Positions 1,822 to 9,191 of a stretch of DNA of 24,102 nucleotides are shown here, one piece after another; the stretch's first letter is position 1, and each line of letters starts with the position of its first letter. The stretch spans positions 1 to 24,102 of IMG/VR virus record IMGVR_UViG_3300037635_005197. The stretch is one strand, 5' to 3'. The notes under the pieces were generated by a model. That model did no database searches and was not told where the DNA came from. It saw nothing but the letters and a program-made list of their open reading frames with translations. Origin of the DNA: a virus. A program made the translations under genes and the position numbers.

Positions 1822-2052
1822 TTACCAGTCTGGATATTGCCAGTTAGCATTTGCTGGTTTTTTCTTTCTATTATCAGAAACTCTTTTTTTATTACATTCC
1901 TTACACTCATAAGAGTATGAAGAAGGAAATACGCCTCTATCTTTTCTAATCAAATAAAATTCGTCAATCAAGTTTTTTATTTCTTTGCAGGATCTACATT
2001 CTCTTTCCAAAAATAATATATGTTCTAATTGAATTTGATCATCTAAATTCAT
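1822..2052 (-). CDS. Small zinc-ribbon-like protein between gp17 and gp18
   Basis: A 76-residue hydrophilic protein of unknown function. It has two Cys pairs, CRSC near residues 19-22 and CKEC near 50-53, separated by about 27 residues that include the pattern EIKNLIDEFY. This is the spacing of a two-knuckle zinc ribbon as found in small phage proteins and at the N-termini of some HNH endonucleases. No HNH catalytic motif follows; the tail is Lys/Arg-rich (KKRVSDNRKKK) and ends in NWQYPDW. I chose the ATG at 2052 because it forms a TAATG overlap with the gp17 stop. An in-frame ATG at 2067, inside gp17, would add five residues. The overlap suggests translational coupling to the large terminase. 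A nucleic-acid-binding or packaging accessory role is possible but is inference. Confidence 0.8.
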   Translation of the reverse strand: MNLDDQIQLEHILFLERECRSCKEIKNLIDEFYLIRKDRGVFPSSYSYECKECNKKRVSDNRKKKPANANWQYPDW

Positions 2053-3695
2053 TACATATAATCCCACATATAACTTCTGTCGCCATATTCATCTACATGC
2101 CAGGTATCGCCATCAGTATCCGTAAAAATAGTATCATTTAATCCATCTTCTACAAATCCAAATGGTGCCATGTCCTGTTCAATTTCATTTCTTTTCTCTT
2201 CATATAATCTTTTACGAACATCATTATTTGTCATTTCTTTAAAATATTCTTGTGCAACTAACCAAGAAAATAAAACTAGACACATTGCTAAATCATCATT
2301 ACAACCTTCCTCTGCCTCAAAAGTATTTCCTCTTTGGGAAAAAGTTGTAAGTTCTGATATGACTTCATAATCAGAAACTAATATTTTATCATCTTCTAAA
2401 AGTGTCTTTAAATTTGAACATCCTAGTTTTTTTACACCAGAAGTTGTTCTAACACCAAGTTGCGATCTTTTTCCACTAAATCCCTGACCAACAATTTGAC
2501 CATTTCTTCCTCTCATTGAGGCCATTAAAATATTAGGATACTCAAGATCGAAATGGAGAATATTTGCTACTTGATCTCCAATATCATTAATTTCTATAAG
2601 CATCCATGCACTATTATATCCTTTTGCGACTTCTTCAATAATATTGGGAAATAACATGGGTTTTATTTCATTATTCCTATATTTTGCTACAACTTTATAT
2701 GGAAACTCTGTTATATCAAAAACAATGAATGCAGAATAATCATTGCCCATACCACGAGCAACATCAACAGTCATTAGATAATTATGATCTTTTTCTGGAT
2801 TTGTATGGATATCAAGTCCGGCATTTTTTCTAATCGGTTCTTGATAAACTAAATTCCTTAATTTTGATGGGTTGATAAGAGTATTAATAGAACCCAAGAA
2901 TTCGCATTCAAACTCAACTTTGAATTGTGCTTCTGAAGTATTGGCAATTGTTTGCTCTTTCCATACAACATCTCTACCAGGAACTTCAGACCAATGAACA
3001 TCTGTAGGAGTATATTCATTTTTGCCATTCTCAGCATCATGCCACATGCGATAAAAATGATTCATACCCCTTGGAGTAGAAACAATAATTACCTTTGTAC
3101 TTTGTCCAGAAGAAATTGTGGGATAAACAGAAGCAAAGAAATCGTCGGCAATGTGATTTGGAATGAATGCAAATTCGTCGAGAAATATTACATTATATGA
3201 TCCGCCACGAACAGCAGAGGAAGAAGTAGAGTTGGATGAAATTTTAGATCCGTTTTCAAGTTCAAGAGATCCTTTATTCCAGGATATAATACCTTGTTGC
3301 ATCCACTTAGGTAGATTTTCATATGCAAGTTGCAATCTTCCCAATAAATCTCTTGCAGTAGATGCTTTGTTTGCTAATATAGCAATATTTACGTTATCGT
3401 TAAAAACTGCATAATGTAAAAGATATGATACGCATGTTGTAGATTTGCCAGTCTGGCGTGGCATTTTGCATATATTAAATCTTTTATCGTGAAAGTTTTG
3501 AATTAATTTTTCTTGAAATGGATAAAGATTGAATGGAACCAATCCGTGATCCAGGGAAACAATTTTAATATAATTTTTAGCAAAATATACCGGATCTTCT
3601 TTGCACTTCATGAATTCAATGATATTATCTTCTGTGAATTCAATTGCAGTATTTGCTTTTTTAAGATTTGGGTTACCCAAATATACTTCAGACAT
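2052..3695 (-). CDS. gp17: Terminase large subunit gp17 (packaging ATPase and nuclease)
   Basis: The motor of DNA packaging: it cuts concatemeric DNA and pumps it through the portal into the prohead. At 547 residues it is slightly shorter than T4 gp17 (610). The ATPase half shows Walker A PRQTGKST (79-86), Walker B VIFLDEF (169-175) with catalytic D173/E174, and the coupling motif STPRG (206-210). The RNase-H-like nuclease half shows acidic residues at the expected places: D311 in TVDVARG, E369 in LIEIND and D467/D468 in CNDDLAM, matching the T4 triad. All key residues are present, so the enzyme should be active. It starts 62 nt after the stop of the 643-residue protein, with no convincing Shine-Dalgarno (the leader reads CTGAATAATTATT). 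Its stop overlaps the next ATG. Unlike T4, gene 16 is not adjacent. Confidence 0.98.
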   Translation of the reverse strand: MSEVYLGNPNLKKANTAIEFTEDNIIEFMKCKEDPVYFAKNYIKIVSLDHGLVPFNLYPFQEKLIQNFHDKRFNICKMPRQTGKSTTCVSYLLHYAVFNDNVNIAILANKASTARDLLGRLQLAYENLPKWMQQGIISWNKGSLELENGSKISSNSTSSSAVRGGSYNVIFLDEFAFIPNHIADDFFASVYPTISSGQSTKVIIVSTPRGMNHFYRMWHDAENGKNEYTPTDVHWSEVPGRDVVWKEQTIANTSEAQFKVEFECEFLGSINTLINPSKLRNLVYQEPIRKNAGLDIHTNPEKDHNYLMTVDVARGMGNDYSAFIVFDITEFPYKVVAKYRNNEIKPMLFPNIIEEVAKGYNSAWMLIEINDIGDQVANILHFDLEYPNILMASMRGRNGQIVGQGFSGKRSQLGVRTTSGVKKLGCSNLKTLLEDDKILVSDYEVISELTTFSQRGNTFEAEEGCNDDLAMCLVLFSWLVAQEYFKEMTNNDVRKRLYEEKRNEIEQDMAPFGFVEDGLNDTIFTDTDGDTWHVDEYGDRSYMWDYM

Positions 3696-3757: not shown

Positions 3758-5689
3758 TCAGCATTTCCAGCGACGACGGGCCTTACAAATTGATTTATCG
3801 GGGGTTTTAGCGCAATTGATGTTATGCATGTCTTGCTGCCCCTTAGAACGGGCGCAGAAAGACTTTCTGCGCTTGGCATCTTTACTACCTTTTTTTGGAT
3901 TACCAGTTACTGCAGTCTTTAGTTTAGAACCTGGATTTTCACGTCTGTAAGCATTAACTGATCTCTGACTCATACCATCAACACCATCTTTACGATTTGA
4001 TTTCTGCCAGTCTTCTTTCACCTCTTGCTTACCATAAGTTTTGCAGGGATCTTTACCACATCCGCAGTTCTTTTTCTCAGGTTTTTCGTGGGTATAACCC
4101 ATCTTCTTCATACGAAGATGATCCTGTTCTGTTTCGGCATCATATCCCTTACCAGTTTTTTGATCATACATCTTATGGGATTTAAACTCTTTTTCTTGAA
4201 GATTTAAATCGGACCTCCAATCAGAGAAATGTGCTTTTACACAATTTGGATATCTCTTTCCAAACATTGTCTTCATACCCTTTTTCTCATATCCTTTCCA
4301 ACACTTTTCATCAAGATTAGCAGCAACTTTAGCAACTTGTTTAGATTGTTTTGCGTGCATTTTAGATGCACCTTTCAATTGTTTTGAAACTTCTTTAAGT
4401 TTGTCCAAAGTTGACTTTGCTTCACTCAAACCTTTCATGGGTTCTGTCTTAATAATATCAACGAATTCAAATTCCATTGTTTTGAAATCATCTCTCCAGT
4501 TGGAGTAATCGTAACTTTCTTTATTAATTTTATTGCCCCAGTTTTTGGCACCAACTTTACGACACTTGACTAGTGCTCCAGAAGCATATGCAGAAGGCCA
4601 CACAGAGTAACGAGATTTGACCTTATGGTAGCAAGCATCTTTCTTTCCTTCTTCAGTTACCATTTTCGCTTTACCTTTTCTATTGGGATTTGGATCTTCT
4701 TTACGCTTTTTCTTTGCTCTTTTTTCCCTTTCATCTTTACTCATGGCAGCACGATCATCTGCATCACGGCAAAATGGTTTAGTCTTCTGTCCTGGTTGCT
4801 TTGCACAAGGTTTTCCGTCATACTTGCCACCAGTCTGTTTCCAACCACCACCTTTGAACCAGTCGCGGAGAGAATAACCTTTGTCCTTGGCAGATTTACC
4901 ATCTCTTGCCTCTTCTAATTGTTCGACTTCTTCTCTTACTCTTGGATTATAATATGGATTTACATCATTACTATGTTTTTTACCTGTACTGGTAAATCCC
5001 GCCTCTCTTCTTTTCTTTTCAAACTCATACCGCTTTGTGGGAGATTTCCATTTTTTCTTTGGGACGGGTTTACCAGTAAACCCAATTTCAGTCTCATCTT
5101 TTTTCTTTGCAGATTTGCCTTGCCCATAATCAACAGATGGTGATTTTTTGTCCTCACTTTTTTTTCGTGCTTGCATGATCATTCCTGCCAAACCAGTTGC
5201 TGCCAAACCAGCACCGATTGCTTTCATTGTGGGTACTGCTAATGGTGCTGCTAATAGAGGCACTGCTTCATTGATTTTATCTGCATAACCAGCAGCAGCA
5301 TCAGTGTCATGTGCAGTATCAGTAATCTTTGCTTGCATCCAAGCAGGAATATCTTTCTCTTTCTTACCTAGTGCTTTTCTCAACTTTGCAATGTTTCTTT
5401 CTGCTTTTGCAAGTTGGGATTGTGCCATTGCAACTTCATGATCGCCAGACTCTTTATCCTCATTAGTGACGCTCCAACTTTCTTCTACTCCACCACCGCC
5501 ATCTCCTCCAGCATCAGAACCTCCATTTCCGCTACCATTGGAATCGTTTCCACTCTTATCTTCACTATCCTCTTCATGATCTTTATCACGCATAATCTGC
5601 CCACTAGACATTAAATGCCATCCCCTAGGAATTTTTTTACATTCTTTGTCTGTAAAGCAATAATAGTATCCTTTTTTACAAGATTTCAT
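3758..5689 (-). CDS. Cys/Lys-rich multidomain protein between gp16 and gp17, function unknown
   Basis: A 643-residue, very basic and modular protein. Visible segments: an N-terminal Cys motif SCKKGYYYCFTDKECKKIP (3-21); an acidic Gly/Ser/Asn/Asp linker (36-68); an Ala/Lys helix (86-112); a hydrophobic Ala/Gly stretch (143-172); a basic linker; a DUF5872-like segment with SLRDWFKGGGW (273-283) and KPCAKQPG (293-300); DACYHKVKSRYSVWPSAYAS (351-370) plus ALVKCRKVGAKNWGNK; a Lys-rich helix (424-457); CWKGYEKKGM (463-472) with PNC at 481; CGCGKDPC (542-549); and a DUF6321-like C-terminus, MSQRSVNAYRRENPGSKLKT (573-592) to RRKSFCAR and a final RRRWKC. Related segments occur in marine T4-like phages and large algal viruses, none with a known function. 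E/small-residue junctions at 260/261, 347/348 and 423/424 resemble prohead protease sites. Candidate roles are an internal head or DNA-condensing protein, or another virion component; this is inference. A CTAAATA motif lies 24 nt upstream of the ATG. Confidence 0.9.
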   Translation of the reverse strand: MKSCKKGYYYCFTDKECKKIPRGWHLMSSGQIMRDKDHEEDSEDKSGNDSNGSGNGGSDAGGDGGGGVEESWSVTNEDKESGDHEVAMAQSQLAKAERNIAKLRKALGKKEKDIPAWMQAKITDTAHDTDAAAGYADKINEAVPLLAAPLAVPTMKAIGAGLAATGLAGMIMQARKKSEDKKSPSVDYGQGKSAKKKDETEIGFTGKPVPKKKWKSPTKRYEFEKKRREAGFTSTGKKHSNDVNPYYNPRVREEVEQLEEARDGKSAKDKGYSLRDWFKGGGWKQTGGKYDGKPCAKQPGQKTKPFCRDADDRAAMSKDEREKRAKKKRKEDPNPNRKGKAKMVTEEGKKDACYHKVKSRYSVWPSAYASGALVKCRKVGAKNWGNKINKESYDYSNWRDDFKTMEFEFVDIIKTEPMKGLSEAKSTLDKLKEVSKQLKGASKMHAKQSKQVAKVAANLDEKCWKGYEKKGMKTMFGKRYPNCVKAHFSDWRSDLNLQEKEFKSHKMYDQKTGKGYDAETEQDHLRMKKMGYTHEKPEKKNCGCGKDPCKTYGKQEVKEDWQKSNRKDGVDGMSQRSVNAYRRENPGSKLKTAVTGNPKKGSKDAKRRKSFCARSKGQQDMHNINCAKTPDKSICKARRRWKC

Positions 5690-5695
5690 TTATAC

Positions 5696-6127
5696 TTATT
5701 CTTCGTTAGTATTATTTAGAAAACCTTTTTTTAATAACTTAGATAAGTCTGAGGTTGATCCAACAAACAAGGCATTATTAGTCACATTAGTTGTCTGTTT
5801 AACATTATCTTCCTCAAGATCTTTGATTTTCTTTTGAAGATCTGCTAATTTATCTGTAGTATCTGCAACGTTCTTAATTAGTTGTCCTGCAACTTCATAA
5901 GCGCGTGGACTATCACTTTCTCCTGCAAGATCCATAATTCCATTAATTGCTTCTTGCCCTTTTTCAATTAATGAATATAAATTTGCTCTTGTATATTCAT
6001 AATCTTTTTTAATATCTCCTGGTTTCATTGACTCGGGATTTAGTTCCTGAGGTTTTATTATGGAAGTATTATCGTCCTCCATAGAAGTATTAAAGGTATC
6101 ATTCAAACTGTCAAAATTTTTAGTCAT
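5696..6127 (-). CDS. gp16: Terminase small subunit gp16
   Basis: The DNA-recognition and regulatory partner of gp17, which forms rings and loads the motor on viral DNA. The protein is 143 residues from the ATG at 6127; a TTG at 6136 would add three residues and overlap the gp15 stop. T4 gp16 has 164. Family signatures are SDSPRAYEV in the middle of the central helical region (T4 has DSPRHMEV), a following Lys/Asp coiled-coil stretch TDKLADLQKKIKDLEED, and the C-terminal NNALFVGSTSDLSKLL (T4 has TVFVGSPTDL). The N-terminal 30 residues are acidic and probably disordered. ATG was preferred because no strong Shine-Dalgarno favours TTG; either start is possible. Translation is probably coupled to gp15, whose stop lies 5 nt upstream. 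The usual partner gene, gp17, is displaced by about 2 kb. Confidence 0.92.
   Translation of the reverse strand: MTKNFDSLNDTFNTSMEDDNTSIIKPQELNPESMKPGDIKKDYEYTRANLYSLIEKGQEAINGIMDLAGESDSPRAYEVAGQLIKNVADTTDKLADLQKKIKDLEEDNVKQTTNVTNNALFVGSTSDLSKLLKKGFLNNTNEE
5713..5719 (-). promoter_or_regulatory. Late-promoter-like motif CTAAATA upstream of the 643-residue gene
   Basis: CTAAATA on the minus strand, inside the last codons of gp16 and 24 nt before the ATG at 5689. It is the same heptamer and orientation as the motif before gp18. Its presence suggests the inserted gene carries its own late promoter. It is inside coding sequence, so chance is possible. Confidence 0.45.
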
Positions 6128-6132
6128 ATTAA

Positions 6133-6933
6133 TCAAATATCAGATTGTTGCACGGGACTATATGCTTTTGAGTCTCCCAAATATTGCCAATCTTCATCTA
6201 ATGTCCAATTATCATCTGGTTCTGCATTAGAAGGATTGGGTTGTGCAGTATACCTCATTTCACGTTTTGCAGTTCTAATATCTGTATCAGAATACGTATC
6301 AACTTGAACTTTACGGATAAGAGAATCAGTGCTATCACTAATTGGTCCAAACAGATATGTTTTTGCGGTAAACTGTAGTGTATAAAGAATTAACCTTCGA
6401 GATGAAAAATCTCCTTCATAATCATCTCTAAAAGAAACAGAATCTAAAACGATTGGCACATCTTTCTTTTCATCAATAACATCTGTCATATCAACCGTAA
6501 CAGTAAATGATGGTTGAAAAAATGGTAAAATTTGTTCGACAATTTGGAGAACTTCATCATTAAACTTTGTCATTATATTAATTTCAAATCCAATATTATA
6601 TGGAATTGGCATATAAACTTTACGAGTTTTATCATCAGATCCAACCGATTTGAAGGTCTGTGTTATACCAACTTTTCTTGAAGAATCATATTTCAAAGAA
6701 TTCATTTCAAATGAAATTCTGGGCAATGTAATAGCAATGGGTTTATTGAGATCTGCTTGTTGCTCTAATCTCGCTAAAAACTTTTGTGTAGGTCCATATG
6801 ATAATGGAACTCGTATCTCACTAAAAGTATCACCTGTAGCATCCTTTGATTTGACAATTATGTTGTTAAATAAGTTGCCAAAAGCAATAATAGTTTTTCT
6901 TATGTTTTGATGATAAAAATAAGTTCCTAACAT
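6133..6933 (-). CDS. gp15: Tail completion and sheath stabiliser protein gp15
   Basis: Forms the hexameric ring that caps the finished tail and joins it to the head neck. It has 266 residues against 272 in T4. The N-terminus MLGTYFYHQNIRKTIIAFGN and the following VPLSYGPTQKFLARLEQQ (about 43-60) are hallmarks of this family, and the central TRKVYMPIPYNIGF and FFQPSFTVTV segments fit the conserved core. The ATG at 6931-6933 overlaps the gp14 stop as TAATG, so translation is likely coupled to gp14. The C-terminal 35 residues are polar and end NWTLDEDWQYLG followed by a short Ser/Gln tail. Position between gp14 and gp16 is as in T4. Nothing appears broken. Confidence 0.95.
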   Translation of the reverse strand: MLGTYFYHQNIRKTIIAFGNLFNNIIVKSKDATGDTFSEIRVPLSYGPTQKFLARLEQQADLNKPIAITLPRISFEMNSLKYDSSRKVGITQTFKSVGSDDKTRKVYMPIPYNIGFEINIMTKFNDEVLQIVEQILPFFQPSFTVTVDMTDVIDEKKDVPIVLDSVSFRDDYEGDFSSRRLILYTLQFTAKTYLFGPISDSTDSLIRKVQVDTYSDTDIRTAKREMRYTAQPNPSNAEPDDNWTLDEDWQYLGDSKAYSPVQQSDI

Positions 6934-9191
6934 TAGTAATTACCGAATAAATTTGTTTCTGTGAAATCAATTATAGAACTAGACTCTGTTTGTATAGTAT
7001 CATTTTGTTCATATTTATCTTGATTTATGGGATTTTCTCCCAATTCGCCAATGGTATATCGTGCTGACGATGAAGATCCAATAATAACCTCACCATCAGT
7101 AAATGTGCCAGAAATATTACCAATTTTGAGGATATTTGTGGATGTATCCCATGATTTTACGTAAGCAGTTGATCCGGAAGATTCTCCAGTAACGACTTCA
7201 TTGAATATATAAGTTCCAATACCAGTTATTGTTGCTGGCGCTGCAATAGTAATAGATGGTGCAGAAGTATATCCAACACCAGAATTAGTAAGATATACTG
7301 AATCTACTATTCCTGCTGATGTTATATTTACAATTCCCGATGCTGCAGTTGTTCCGAGACCAACAACATCTGGACTGGAAAATGTTACAATTGGCGAATA
7401 ATTGTAACCAGAACCAGCATCTGTAATAGAAATTGAAGAAATTCCACTATATGTGGTATCAATTTCGGCCGTTGCAGTTGCCCCTATACCAGTAGTTCCG
7501 CTTATGATTACATTTGGAATAGATGTATATCCTGCACCAGAATTTGTTATGTATATATTATCAACAGAACAATAACTTCCTATACATGAAGTTATTGCAA
7601 CAGCAGTTGCAGTTATTGAAGGGTAGGCATCTTGAATGGATATTGTAGGAACTGAAGTATAATTAACTCCATTTTCGGTTAAAGATATTCCTGTTACATT
7701 ACCTGTAGAATTTAAAATAACATTTCCAGTGGTTGTGACTCTTTCACCATCTTGGAAGAATAACGTATTTGAAGAATTTTTACTTGTTGACGTTGGTGCT
7801 TCTGCTGGTTGTGATGTTGACCCAATACTAGTAAATCTTAATTCGTCAAGATAAATTTCATTATCAGAAAAATTTCCATTTGGATTTAGGGATACTCCAT
7901 CACTATTCATGAATATAGTATTAAATGTATCAGTTGAATACGAACTATTGATAGTATCGCCAAAGAAGTGAGCAGCAACTCTATGTGAGCCAGAATTATC
8001 GTCAGTTTGGGAAAGTCTTATCCAATTCCAACGATTAAAATTGCTACTATAATCTGATATTAACTCAACTGTAGTGAAACTATTATCAAAATCACTATCT
8101 GGTCTAGACCAATTTAGAGAAGTTGTTCCTCCACTAGTTGAAAAATATAAAGAGTATTTTATGCTATTATCGTCATTAGTGCCCCATTCCAGTATTGTAA
8201 CATCTCCCGCAGCAGCTGTTGTTGCATACAACCAAAATTCAATTGCTCCAGTTTCTCTTTCCGCCAATCCAGAAGTAGGTATAAGTAATCCAGAATTTTC
8301 TCCATTATATGATCTGGATCCAAATTTAACAATAGTGGTTTCATTACCTCCACCAGTTGGATCACTAAATGTAACTGTCGGTATATTCTTATGACTGGGA
8401 TAATATCCACTATTTGTAATTGTAGTACTAGTGACTGATCCTCCCACACTTACAGTTGCAGTTGCTGCAGCACCAACTGCCGTAGGAGGATCATCTATAG
8501 TTACTGTAGGGACTGTAGTATAATTATAACCATCTTCAATAAGATTGATAGTTTTTATATATCCACTATTCTCTCGTATTGTTGCCGAAGCAGAAGCTTG
8601 ACTACCCGATGCTAAAAGTGTTAAGGACTTAATGTATCCATAATCCTCAAGAGATTCATCAATCTCTCCTATACCTGTAGAAATCACAGATGAATGTGTA
8701 TATTCAAAGAGTTCACATTTCAACTCATATACGTATGTTTTTCCTAATTGATAGAATGGTTGTTCATGCTCAACAAATTTAATTTCAAATAATCTTTCAC
8801 CTAGAGGAAACCAAATCAAATCTCCTTCTCTAGGTCTTAAAGATGTAGTATTTTCTGACGTTGGTATTTCAGATAAAAGCGGAGAAATAAAATCTTCAAA
8901 TCTTTCTTTGGAAATAATTAAAGTAACTTCATCCTTCAATTGCATACCGAATTTGCTCAGTATGTCTCCAGATCCAGAATATCCTCCATAATTACTTAAG
9001 TATGCTTCAACTATAAACTTATCAGTAAATTTGGAGGAAGTAACTTCCCTTATAACTGTTTCTTTTCTTATCATCCTTTGAGGTAGATAAGCAATATCCA
9101 TTCCATACATGGATAATTGTTCATTTACTAATGACTGTATTAATCTTTGTTCAGATTCTGAACCATGCAGAAAAAATGGATTTAATGCCAT
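6933..9191 (-). CDS. gp14: Neck protein gp14 with a large beta-rich insertion
   Basis: gp14 joins gp13 in the neck that closes the filled head and docks the tail. T4 gp14 has 256 residues; this one has 752. Residues 1-185 hold the neck-protein core (start MALNPFFLHGSESEQRLIQS, then LPQRMIRKE, FGMQLKDEVTLIISKERFED, LRPREGDLIWFPLGERLFEI, YQLGKTYVYELKCELFEY). The last 35 or so residues (DKYEQNDTIQTESSSIIDF to NLFGNY) return to core-like sequence. Between them sit about 530 residues of GxGYTxxPxVxI repeats (six copies: about 219-231, 260-274, 507-518, 551-563, 591-603, 637-649) around a LamG-like domain (285-458). An isolated Cys pair (C536, C541) lies among the repeats. A Shine-Dalgarno AGGA precedes the ATG. 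The insert may decorate the neck with a glycan-binding fibre or collar; that is inference. Confidence 0.93.
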   Translation of the reverse strand: MALNPFFLHGSESEQRLIQSLVNEQLSMYGMDIAYLPQRMIRKETVIREVTSSKFTDKFIVEAYLSNYGGYSGSGDILSKFGMQLKDEVTLIISKERFEDFISPLLSEIPTSENTTSLRPREGDLIWFPLGERLFEIKFVEHEQPFYQLGKTYVYELKCELFEYTHSSVISTGIGEIDESLEDYGYIKSLTLLASGSQASASATIRENSGYIKTINLIEDGYNYTTVPTVTIDDPPTAVGAAATATVSVGGSVTSTTITNSGYYPSHKNIPTVTFSDPTGGGNETTIVKFGSRSYNGENSGLLIPTSGLAERETGAIEFWLYATTAAAGDVTILEWGTNDDNSIKYSLYFSTSGGTTSLNWSRPDSDFDNSFTTVELISDYSSNFNRWNWIRLSQTDDNSGSHRVAAHFFGDTINSSYSTDTFNTIFMNSDGVSLNPNGNFSDNEIYLDELRFTSIGSTSQPAEAPTSTSKNSSNTLFFQDGERVTTTGNVILNSTGNVTGISLTENGVNYTSVPTISIQDAYPSITATAVAITSCIGSYCSVDNIYITNSGAGYTSIPNVIISGTTGIGATATAEIDTTYSGISSISITDAGSGYNYSPIVTFSSPDVVGLGTTAASGIVNITSAGIVDSVYLTNSGVGYTSAPSITIAAPATITGIGTYIFNEVVTGESSGSTAYVKSWDTSTNILKIGNISGTFTDGEVIIGSSSSARYTIGELGENPINQDKYEQNDTIQTESSSIIDFTETNLFGNY
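7245..7673 (-). repeat. GxGYTxxPxVxI repeat block 2 of gp14 (four copies)
   Basis: Four copies at residues about 507-518 (NGVNYTSVPTIS), 551-563 (SGAGYTSIPNVII), 591-603 (DAGSGYNYSPIVT) and 637-649 (SGVGYTSAPSITI), spaced about 40-46 residues apart. The DNA copies are also similar, for example a tatatccaacaccagaatta-type element near 7272 and a tatatcctgcaccagaattt-type element near 7527, so recent duplication or exchange is plausible. Confidence 0.85.
7818..8339 (-). other. LamG/concanavalin-like domain inserted in gp14
   Basis: Residues about 285-458 of gp14 read like a laminin-G-type jelly roll. They open with VKFGSRSYNGENSGLLIP, continue with GAIEFWLYATT, RWNWIRLSQTDDNSGSHRVA (the strand pair RWNWIRL and HRVAAHF is typical), and close with NEIYLDELRFTSIG. 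Such domains commonly bind carbohydrate. Assignment is by pattern only. The domain is flanked on both sides by GxGYT repeats, as if the repeats carried it. Confidence 0.7.
8370..8537 (-). repeat. GxGYTxxPxVxI repeat block 1 of gp14 (two copies)
   Basis: Residues about 219-231 (EDGYNYTTVPTVTI) and 260-274 (NSGYYPSHKNIPTVTF), lying before the LamG-like domain. The second copy is degenerate, with an insertion between GYY and the IPTVTF strand. Confidence 0.75.

Follow-up and report, generated by a model that had tools for sequence, protein, structure and literature searches.

The window considered here is the entire stretch of 24,102 nucleotides that was analysed from the IMG/VR virus record IMGVR_UViG_3300037635_005197; its source is a P-SSM2-like T4-type cyanophage. 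It carries a minus-strand block of late structural genes, which comprises gp18, an endonuclease VII-like gene, gp17, a 643-residue ORF that we term P0001 (3758-5689, minus strand), gp16, gp15, gp14 and gp13. P0001 sits between the terminase small subunit gp16 (5696-6136, minus strand; PHROG 445) and the terminase large subunit gp17 (2052-3695, minus strand; 84% identity to P-SSM2 gp17). Its product contains 111 Lys, 34 Arg and 16 Cys and matches PHROGs 727 and 3477. Relatives, nearly all annotated as unknown, occur in some 400 phage records and on several hundred or more viral contigs.

Some features of the neighbourhood may be recorded separately. The neck protein gp14 of the window (6933-9191) has 752 residues, as against 347 in S-CREM2, and combines the neck domain with repeats common to baseplate wedge and tail fibre PHROGs. 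In 19 of 98 loci, the gene immediately downstream of the module gene is one of about 105 codons (PHROG 1742; e.g. L003:5687-5995, L264:5043-5351 and L266:32216-32536), whose product starts with MK[SN]F..F[LIM][ST]ES..I.GDFNG; it is absent from the window and bears no virion-protein label in S-SCSM1. The gp17 of S-SRM01 carries the GenBank label 'tail sheath protein' (MW015081.1 128216-129937).

A chain of small modules between gp16 and gp17

We divided P0001 into 11 candidate modules, for each of which an HMM was built from 80 viral loci; all are encoded on the minus strand. M1 (residues 1-38, KGYYYC..KKIP; 5576-5689) is a predicted small β domain with an AlphaFold pLDDT of 82-89, and M2 (residues 82-141, DHEVAMAQ..AWMQAKIT; 5267-5446) is helical, with two predicted helices. 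M3 (residues 200-252; 4934-5092) is a basic module with the sequence GFTGKPVPKKKWKSP.., whose HMM recovers few homologues. The bead with M4 (4652-4909; core residues 266-312, SLRDWF..GKPC..KPFC) is DUF5872-like and modelled with a pLDDT of 80-85; M5 (residues 347-390, DACYHKV..VKCRKVG; 4520-4651) reaches about 83. These are followed by M6 (residues 391-420, SNWRDDF..VDIIKTEP; 4430-4519), which was recovered with the module HMM set, and M7 (residues 424-458; 4316-4420), a single helix with a pLDDT of about 80. M8 (residues 462-484, CWKGYEKKGM..YPNC; 4238-4306) is a predicted β hairpin supported by both its HMM and AlphaFold. M9 (residues 486-496; 4202-4234), again from the module HMM set, consists of an SDWRSDL motif; M10 (residues 500-556, HKMYDQKTGKGY..CGCGKDPC; 4022-4192) is defined by its HMM; and the chain ends with M11 (residues 560-643; 3761-4012), a DUF6321 module of 84 residues that exists elsewhere as stand-alone genes of 70-94 codons.

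The initial annotation had described P0001 as a string of small basic Cys-containing domains, and its ORF coordinates are exact and all the domain strings it quoted are present. Its DUF6321-like domain is corroborated by Pfam (PF19846 at residues 571-641, E = 1.8e-10, 41.8 bits against a gathering cut-off of 28.5), M11 being the only module of P0001 with a Pfam match. The DUF5872-like assignment is borne out only in part: a BFVD structure search matches the predicted fold of M4, the DWF module, to a UniProt entry bearing the name DUF5872, but Pfam yields no match of DUF5872 (PF19197) to P0001 at E<1, the gathering cut-off thus being unmet, and one homologue matches with E = 0.009. In the AlphaFold model of P0001 the small beads M1, M3, M7, M8 and the end of M11 are ordered, the linkers are of low confidence and most joints are predicted to be disordered. 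M4 and M5 are ordered in a separate model, with pLDDT about 80 on both sides of an intervening linker below 50. No significant PDB fold match was obtained with the full model (mean pLDDT 55.8), nor any with the M4-M5 model, and a PDB sequence search likewise returned no significant match. The Pfam, PHROGs and PDB searches found neither an enzyme nor a known anti-restriction domain in P0001.

Module-bearing ORFs identified with the HMMs number 84 in the first of two sets and 119 in the other. Among these relatives modules have been gained, lost, duplicated and reordered: the commonest order is M4-M5-M6-M8-M10-M11, and M4-M8-M5, M7-M8-M10-M4-M5 and M4-M5-M2-M8 are also seen.

Hydrophobic-x-Glu sites at the module joints

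T4 prohead protease gp21 cleaves after Glu in L/I-x-E (PMC9026906). The initial annotation had pointed to three sites near domain edges of P0001 that match this or, in the case of TEE↓G, nearly do, and their positions on the minus strand are confirmed by codon translation: LEE↓A (4907-4918), TEE↓G (4646-4657) and LSE↓A (4418-4429), where the arrow marks the would-be cut. The first and third hold, after residues 260 and 423 respectively. TEE↓G fails, lacking Leu or Ile at P3; the conserved site is VTE↓E after residue 346 (4649-4660, minus strand), one residue upstream, in the linker of pLDDT below 50. The list was also incomplete, with at least five further joint sites, all on the minus strand: VEE↓S after residue 70 (5477-5488), in a low-pLDDT linker; INE↓A after 141 (5264-5275), directly followed by the hydrophobic stretch AVPLLAAPLAVPT; LDE↓K after 461 (4304-4315); LQE↓K after 499 (4190-4201); and VKE↓D after 559 (4010-4021). 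Ten [LIVMF]xE sites occur in P0001; nine fall at or close to joints (after residues 70, 141, 253/260, 346, 423, 461, 499 and 559), and the tenth (433) is inside the M7 helix. A cut between M5 and M6, at NKE↓S, was rejected: homologues have Lys or Asn at P3 here, and M5-M6 is hence treated as one piece. As a separate observation, residues 142-172 (5174-5266), just past INE↓A, form a hydrophobic Ala/Leu/Gly stretch that is possibly membrane-active after release.

The number of sites in P0001 is only mildly unusual, with four strict [LIV]xE↓[AGS] sites against 1.0 expected (P=0.02) and ten broad [LIVMF]xE sites against 6.4 (P=0.09), and was rejected as decisive on its own. Strict sites are also abundant in the S-CREM2 long tail fibre (29 versus 12), so that a substrate cannot be recognised by their number alone.

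Given the specificity of gp21 and the earlier claim, we asked at each joint of the homologous ORFs whether P3 is hydrophobic when the Glu nearest upstream of the module core is taken as P1. In the first set this holds for 75% of joints, against 12-33% at P2 and P4-P9 (n=114 non-redundant joints, Fisher 3e-32), and in the second for 76% against 20% (n=156 further non-redundant joints, p=1e-42), where only 14% of Glu residues within modules have a hydrophobic P3. For individual modules the respective figures in the two sets are 95% and 78% of non-redundant joints before M4, 79% and 84% before M8, and 96% and 80% before M11. An [LIV]xE motif occurs within 14 residues ahead of a module in 74% of cases, compared with 6-10% in two windows farther upstream and 16-34% inside modules. 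When sites were rotated circularly within each protein, the mean over 1000 trials was 87 of 547 joints and the maximum 117; the observed count is 421 of 547. Site placement at the joints is therefore far beyond chance, and the conservation of L-x-E at the joints that had been named as a check is satisfied in about 200 homologous ORFs and repeated in the second set.

The linkers vary apart from this motif, in which P3 and P1 are constrained and P2 is free, the same as with gp21. The cleavage code first proposed stands in the sense of a hydrophobic-x-Glu at joints, but the actual pattern is looser: among 213 joints P3 is Ile in 46, Val in 45, Leu in 45, Met in 16 and Phe in 10 (strict Leu/Ile, 43%), Val being as frequent as Leu or Ile, and P1' is often Lys or Asp. 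The P3 constraint holds whether P1' is Gly, Ala, Lys or Asp. N-terminal modules can start exactly at the would-be cut (MRDGKS, MKDGKS, MANKSGDSS); hence the joint motif is not required by the module itself.

Prohead protease, head-targeting leaders and virion proteins of relatives

A Peptidase_S77 of the gp21 family was found in S-CREM2, S-SRM01, S-SZBM1, a Methylophilales phage and three IMG/VR contigs. That the same virus encodes such a protease is thus supported through complete or long relatives; the 24-kb window itself stops short of the gp21 region. In a fourth IMG/VR contig (L013, record L247, 231 kb) the Peptidase_S77 match crosses one TGA and four TAA codons, which may reflect a frameshifted assembly, a pseudogene or another cause. 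Neither an S77 nor an S78 protease was detected in Skadi-10, C75C1 and MaMV-DL02, and these phages have M11 as a separate gene of 70-94 codons, a size that fits the predicted 84-residue product 560-643 of P0001. The comparison covers three phages only, and they may have a protease of another type that escaped detection.

Ahead of the conserved mature start of cyanophage gp23 stands LLTE↓A, ILTE↓A or FLAE↓A, a site read by analogy with LTE↓A of T4 gp23. A cytidylyltransferase present in the virions of several cyanophages starts with MKNFSSFLTE↓A, MKSYKEFLSE↓A, MKKFSAFLTE↓A or MKSFLQFLKE↓A, nearly equal to the T4-type internal-protein leader MKTYKEFIAE↓A; our scan of viral contigs recovered a single cytidylyltransferase locus, and the comparison used annotated phages. 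In S-CREM2 the strict targeting leader occurs on 5 of 52 virion proteins and on none of 167 others (p=6e-4). As side observations in the same phage (L083, L081), T4-type leaders are borne by the cytidylyltransferase, a SAM hydrolase and an APH-like kinase, and a Cas9-like nuclease has one within its first 27 residues, which suggests that these enzymes are head cargo. A leader, MKTFKQYITE↓A, also precedes the lone M11 protein S-SZBM1_192, and targeting-peptide sequences occur within some joints of the chains (KKSFQDFLDE↓GQKCW, EGITFLQFMSE↓AKTAA and GKTFQDFIEE↓KDACY). P0001, which starts with MKSCKKGYYYC, lacks an N-terminal capsid-targeting propeptide of 10-19 residues ending in L/I-x-E, and none is present in the window. 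In a literature search that did not cover subscription papers, 'capsid targeting sequence' and cyanophages were paired in a T4 review only.

The HMMs identify two clear module proteins in the S-CREM2 genome, ORF137, encoded between gp16 and gp17 and bearing M11 at its C-terminus, and ORF160 with modules M4-M8-M5; the mass-spectrometric virion table of this phage (PMC10665884) includes both. The positional orthologue in S-SCSM1, SSCSM1_29 (gene 29), which lies between gp16 and gp17 and has modules M1, M4, M5, M8 and M11, is labelled 'virion protein' in its GenBank record, and the paper on this phage reports 45 virion proteins by mass spectrometry. Its joints read VSE↓GTLHK, MTE↓GKDKK, FNE↓DCWDG and VSE↓GAAWT. 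Virion presence is accordingly met for relatives, by label for SSCSM1_29 and by the virion table for ORF137 and ORF160, and not for P0001 itself. Absence from virions, which had been named as a refutation of the packaged-polyprotein model, is now unlikely in view of the virion label on a positional orthologue that shares this architecture. The tryptic coverage of module proteins in relatives (4-13%) cannot separate cut from uncut chains. S-SZBM1_190, a virion protein from the same gene interval, has no modules and was excluded as a module protein.

Proposed processing of the chain and alternative readings

Building on the observed modular anatomy, joint-site conservation, gp21 of the relatives and virion annotation of the orthologue, we propose that P0001 is a precursor chain cut at its joints into internal head proteins by a gp21-family protease, a reading to which we assign a probability of about 0.75. 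The chain of small, mostly basic, Cys-containing proteins would be incorporated in the prohead core and cut after the Glu of [L/I/V]-x-E, giving about nine pieces of some 4-13 kDa with one or two modules apiece: 1-70, 71-141, 142-260, 261-346, 347-423, 424-461, 462-499, 500-559 and 560-643. Most of these are basic by computed charge and the first two mildly acidic (calculated with cuts at 347 and 556 instead of 346 and 559). At least some pieces would remain in the mature head; basic ones, such as the DUF6321 piece, would be positioned next to the DNA there and may be carried into the host along with it. Loading could use scaffold-binding elements, for which the DWR-x-D/E-L motif before some joints is an inferred candidate, and possible roles of the beads include DNA compaction, redox-sensitive Cys chemistry and host take-over.

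The cleavage-site observation of the initial annotation is thereby confirmed on stronger evidence than it had, and its polyprotein interpretation is supported by the joint conservation, the gp21 of relatives and the virion label, but cutting and packing with DNA are inferred. The same applies to entry of P0001 into the prohead, retention in the head, and the fate and role of the pieces. Against our reading stand the absence of any observed cleavage product, a P1' (Lys/Asp) and P3 (Val) looser than the L/I-x-E given for T4, the missing N-terminal targeting peptide and the location of the site after 499 in a helix predicted with low confidence.

Cleavage of head proteins at L/I-x-E is already known, as are internal proteins, and P0001 would appear to work like T4 internal-protein maturation, failing its N-terminal-leader test. 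Like IPI-IPIII and Alt of T4, which are small and mostly basic, arise from precursors bearing L/I-x-E sites and are packaged in the head, it is proposed to be matured there, and the T4 targeting peptide (MK-x-aromatic-x-x-F-L/I-x-E) is also present in these cyanophages. Unlike them, P0001 strings together many modules, nearly all of whose joints contain an internal site, and lacks an N-terminal leader; a sequence similarity between its modules and T4 internal proteins was not found. The prohead-protease substrates of phiKZ, 201phi2-1 and SPN3US are comparable in being cut after Glu with a P3 preference and in including many head proteins, but there cleavage mainly removes propeptides (at A-x-E in SPN3US), and no module chain is described for these phages in the literature searched. 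Pfam DUF6321 and DUF5872 and PHROGs 727, 3477 and 4689 are all annotated as of unknown function, none with mention of joint sites, and our literature search found no modular internal-protein chain with a site at each joint.

A possible, if tentative, alternative is a core or scaffold protein like T4 gp22 and gp67, cut at its joints and its pieces discarded to free room for the DNA, with an assembly role only. Those proteins likewise have many gp21 sites per polypeptide, gp22 of the same phage has nine L/I-x-E sites against 1.7 expected, and T4 core proteins are cut to fragments, most of which leave (PMC9026906). However, degradation and loss is the main fate of T4 core proteins, whereas the sites of P0001 fall between conserved, Cys-containing modules that also occur as stand-alone proteins, rather than being scattered within them. 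Module proteins are also present in purified virions of relatives, yet T4 too keeps some core fragments.

It is rather doubtful, though compatible with cutting, that P0001 is a packaged and injected multi-domain effector directed at host defence or transcription, akin to the phage-encoded polyvalent proteins, which have 2-15 domains per chain, are likely packaged and have been likened to polyproteins (Iyer et al. 2017, PMC5512222). P0001 shares with these the many domains per chain and their gain, loss and shuffling, its gene lies among late head genes, and there is precedent in T4-like phages for injecting internal proteins (PMC5512222, PMC9026906). But polyvalent proteins carry enzyme domains and often embedded peptidases; P0001 has small Cys-containing and basic modules and would rely on a separate head protease, and the Pfam, PHROGs and PDB searches revealed in it neither catalytic effector domains nor an embedded peptidase, besides the lack of any known anti-restriction domain.

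We consider it unlikely that P0001 stays uncut in the virion, as a protein whose linkers are flexible and whose hydrophobic-x-Glu motif serves for docking, for instance to scaffold or capsid, instead of being a protease site. Cleavage is unobserved, Lys and Asp are common at P1', and the T4 targeting peptide also binds the core, such that the motif could be a binding element; against this, the constraint falls exactly on P3 and P1, N-terminal modules may begin at the would-be cut, and lone modules occur in phages without a detectable protease. An external head decoration or tail component, as the location among neck, terminase and sheath genes might imply, is improbable in view of the gp21 sites, the strong positive charge of most beads and the targeting peptides on the lone M11 protein and within joints.

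If the precursor reading is correct, many hypothetical proteins of abundant ocean viruses would become a testable class, internal head cargo. The head-targeting peptide and L/I-x-E code of T4 are apparently retained in cyanophages, as our results suggest, and packaged proteins could therefore be predicted from sequence; in S-CREM2 this code marks the cytidylyltransferase, SAM hydrolase, kinase and Cas9-like nuclease. We see even odds for the wider proposal that ocean T4-like phages make their internal head proteins as genuine polyproteins of swappable beads, each flanked by a prohead-protease site, which are loaded as one chain, freed in the prohead and delivered with the DNA, such that bead insertion adds or swaps cargo.

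Two further observations concern relatives. A DUF3008-like piece (QQRF.GMV..KG...KDFASTKHKGLP) is a stand-alone 69-residue protein with a virion label in S-SCSM1, and in L066 it is fused upstream of M4 with the joint KIAE↓GKRDGK, making it another bead that exists both ways (L258:18253-20376, L265:31627-31836, L066:4007-5176). Three cyanophage proteins, S-CREM2 ORF160 (L081:14806-15699), MA01 (L263:1698-2441) and SSCSM1_97 (L265:33122-33307), two of which are listed as virion proteins, open with a sequence that closely copies the N-terminal arm of mature gp23 (GFTGAAAPEGPVAGYDPLMG versus GFTGAAAPGGPNAGFDPVMIG in gp23); this sequence matches PHROG 696 'major head protein' and may be a way of docking on the capsid lattice.
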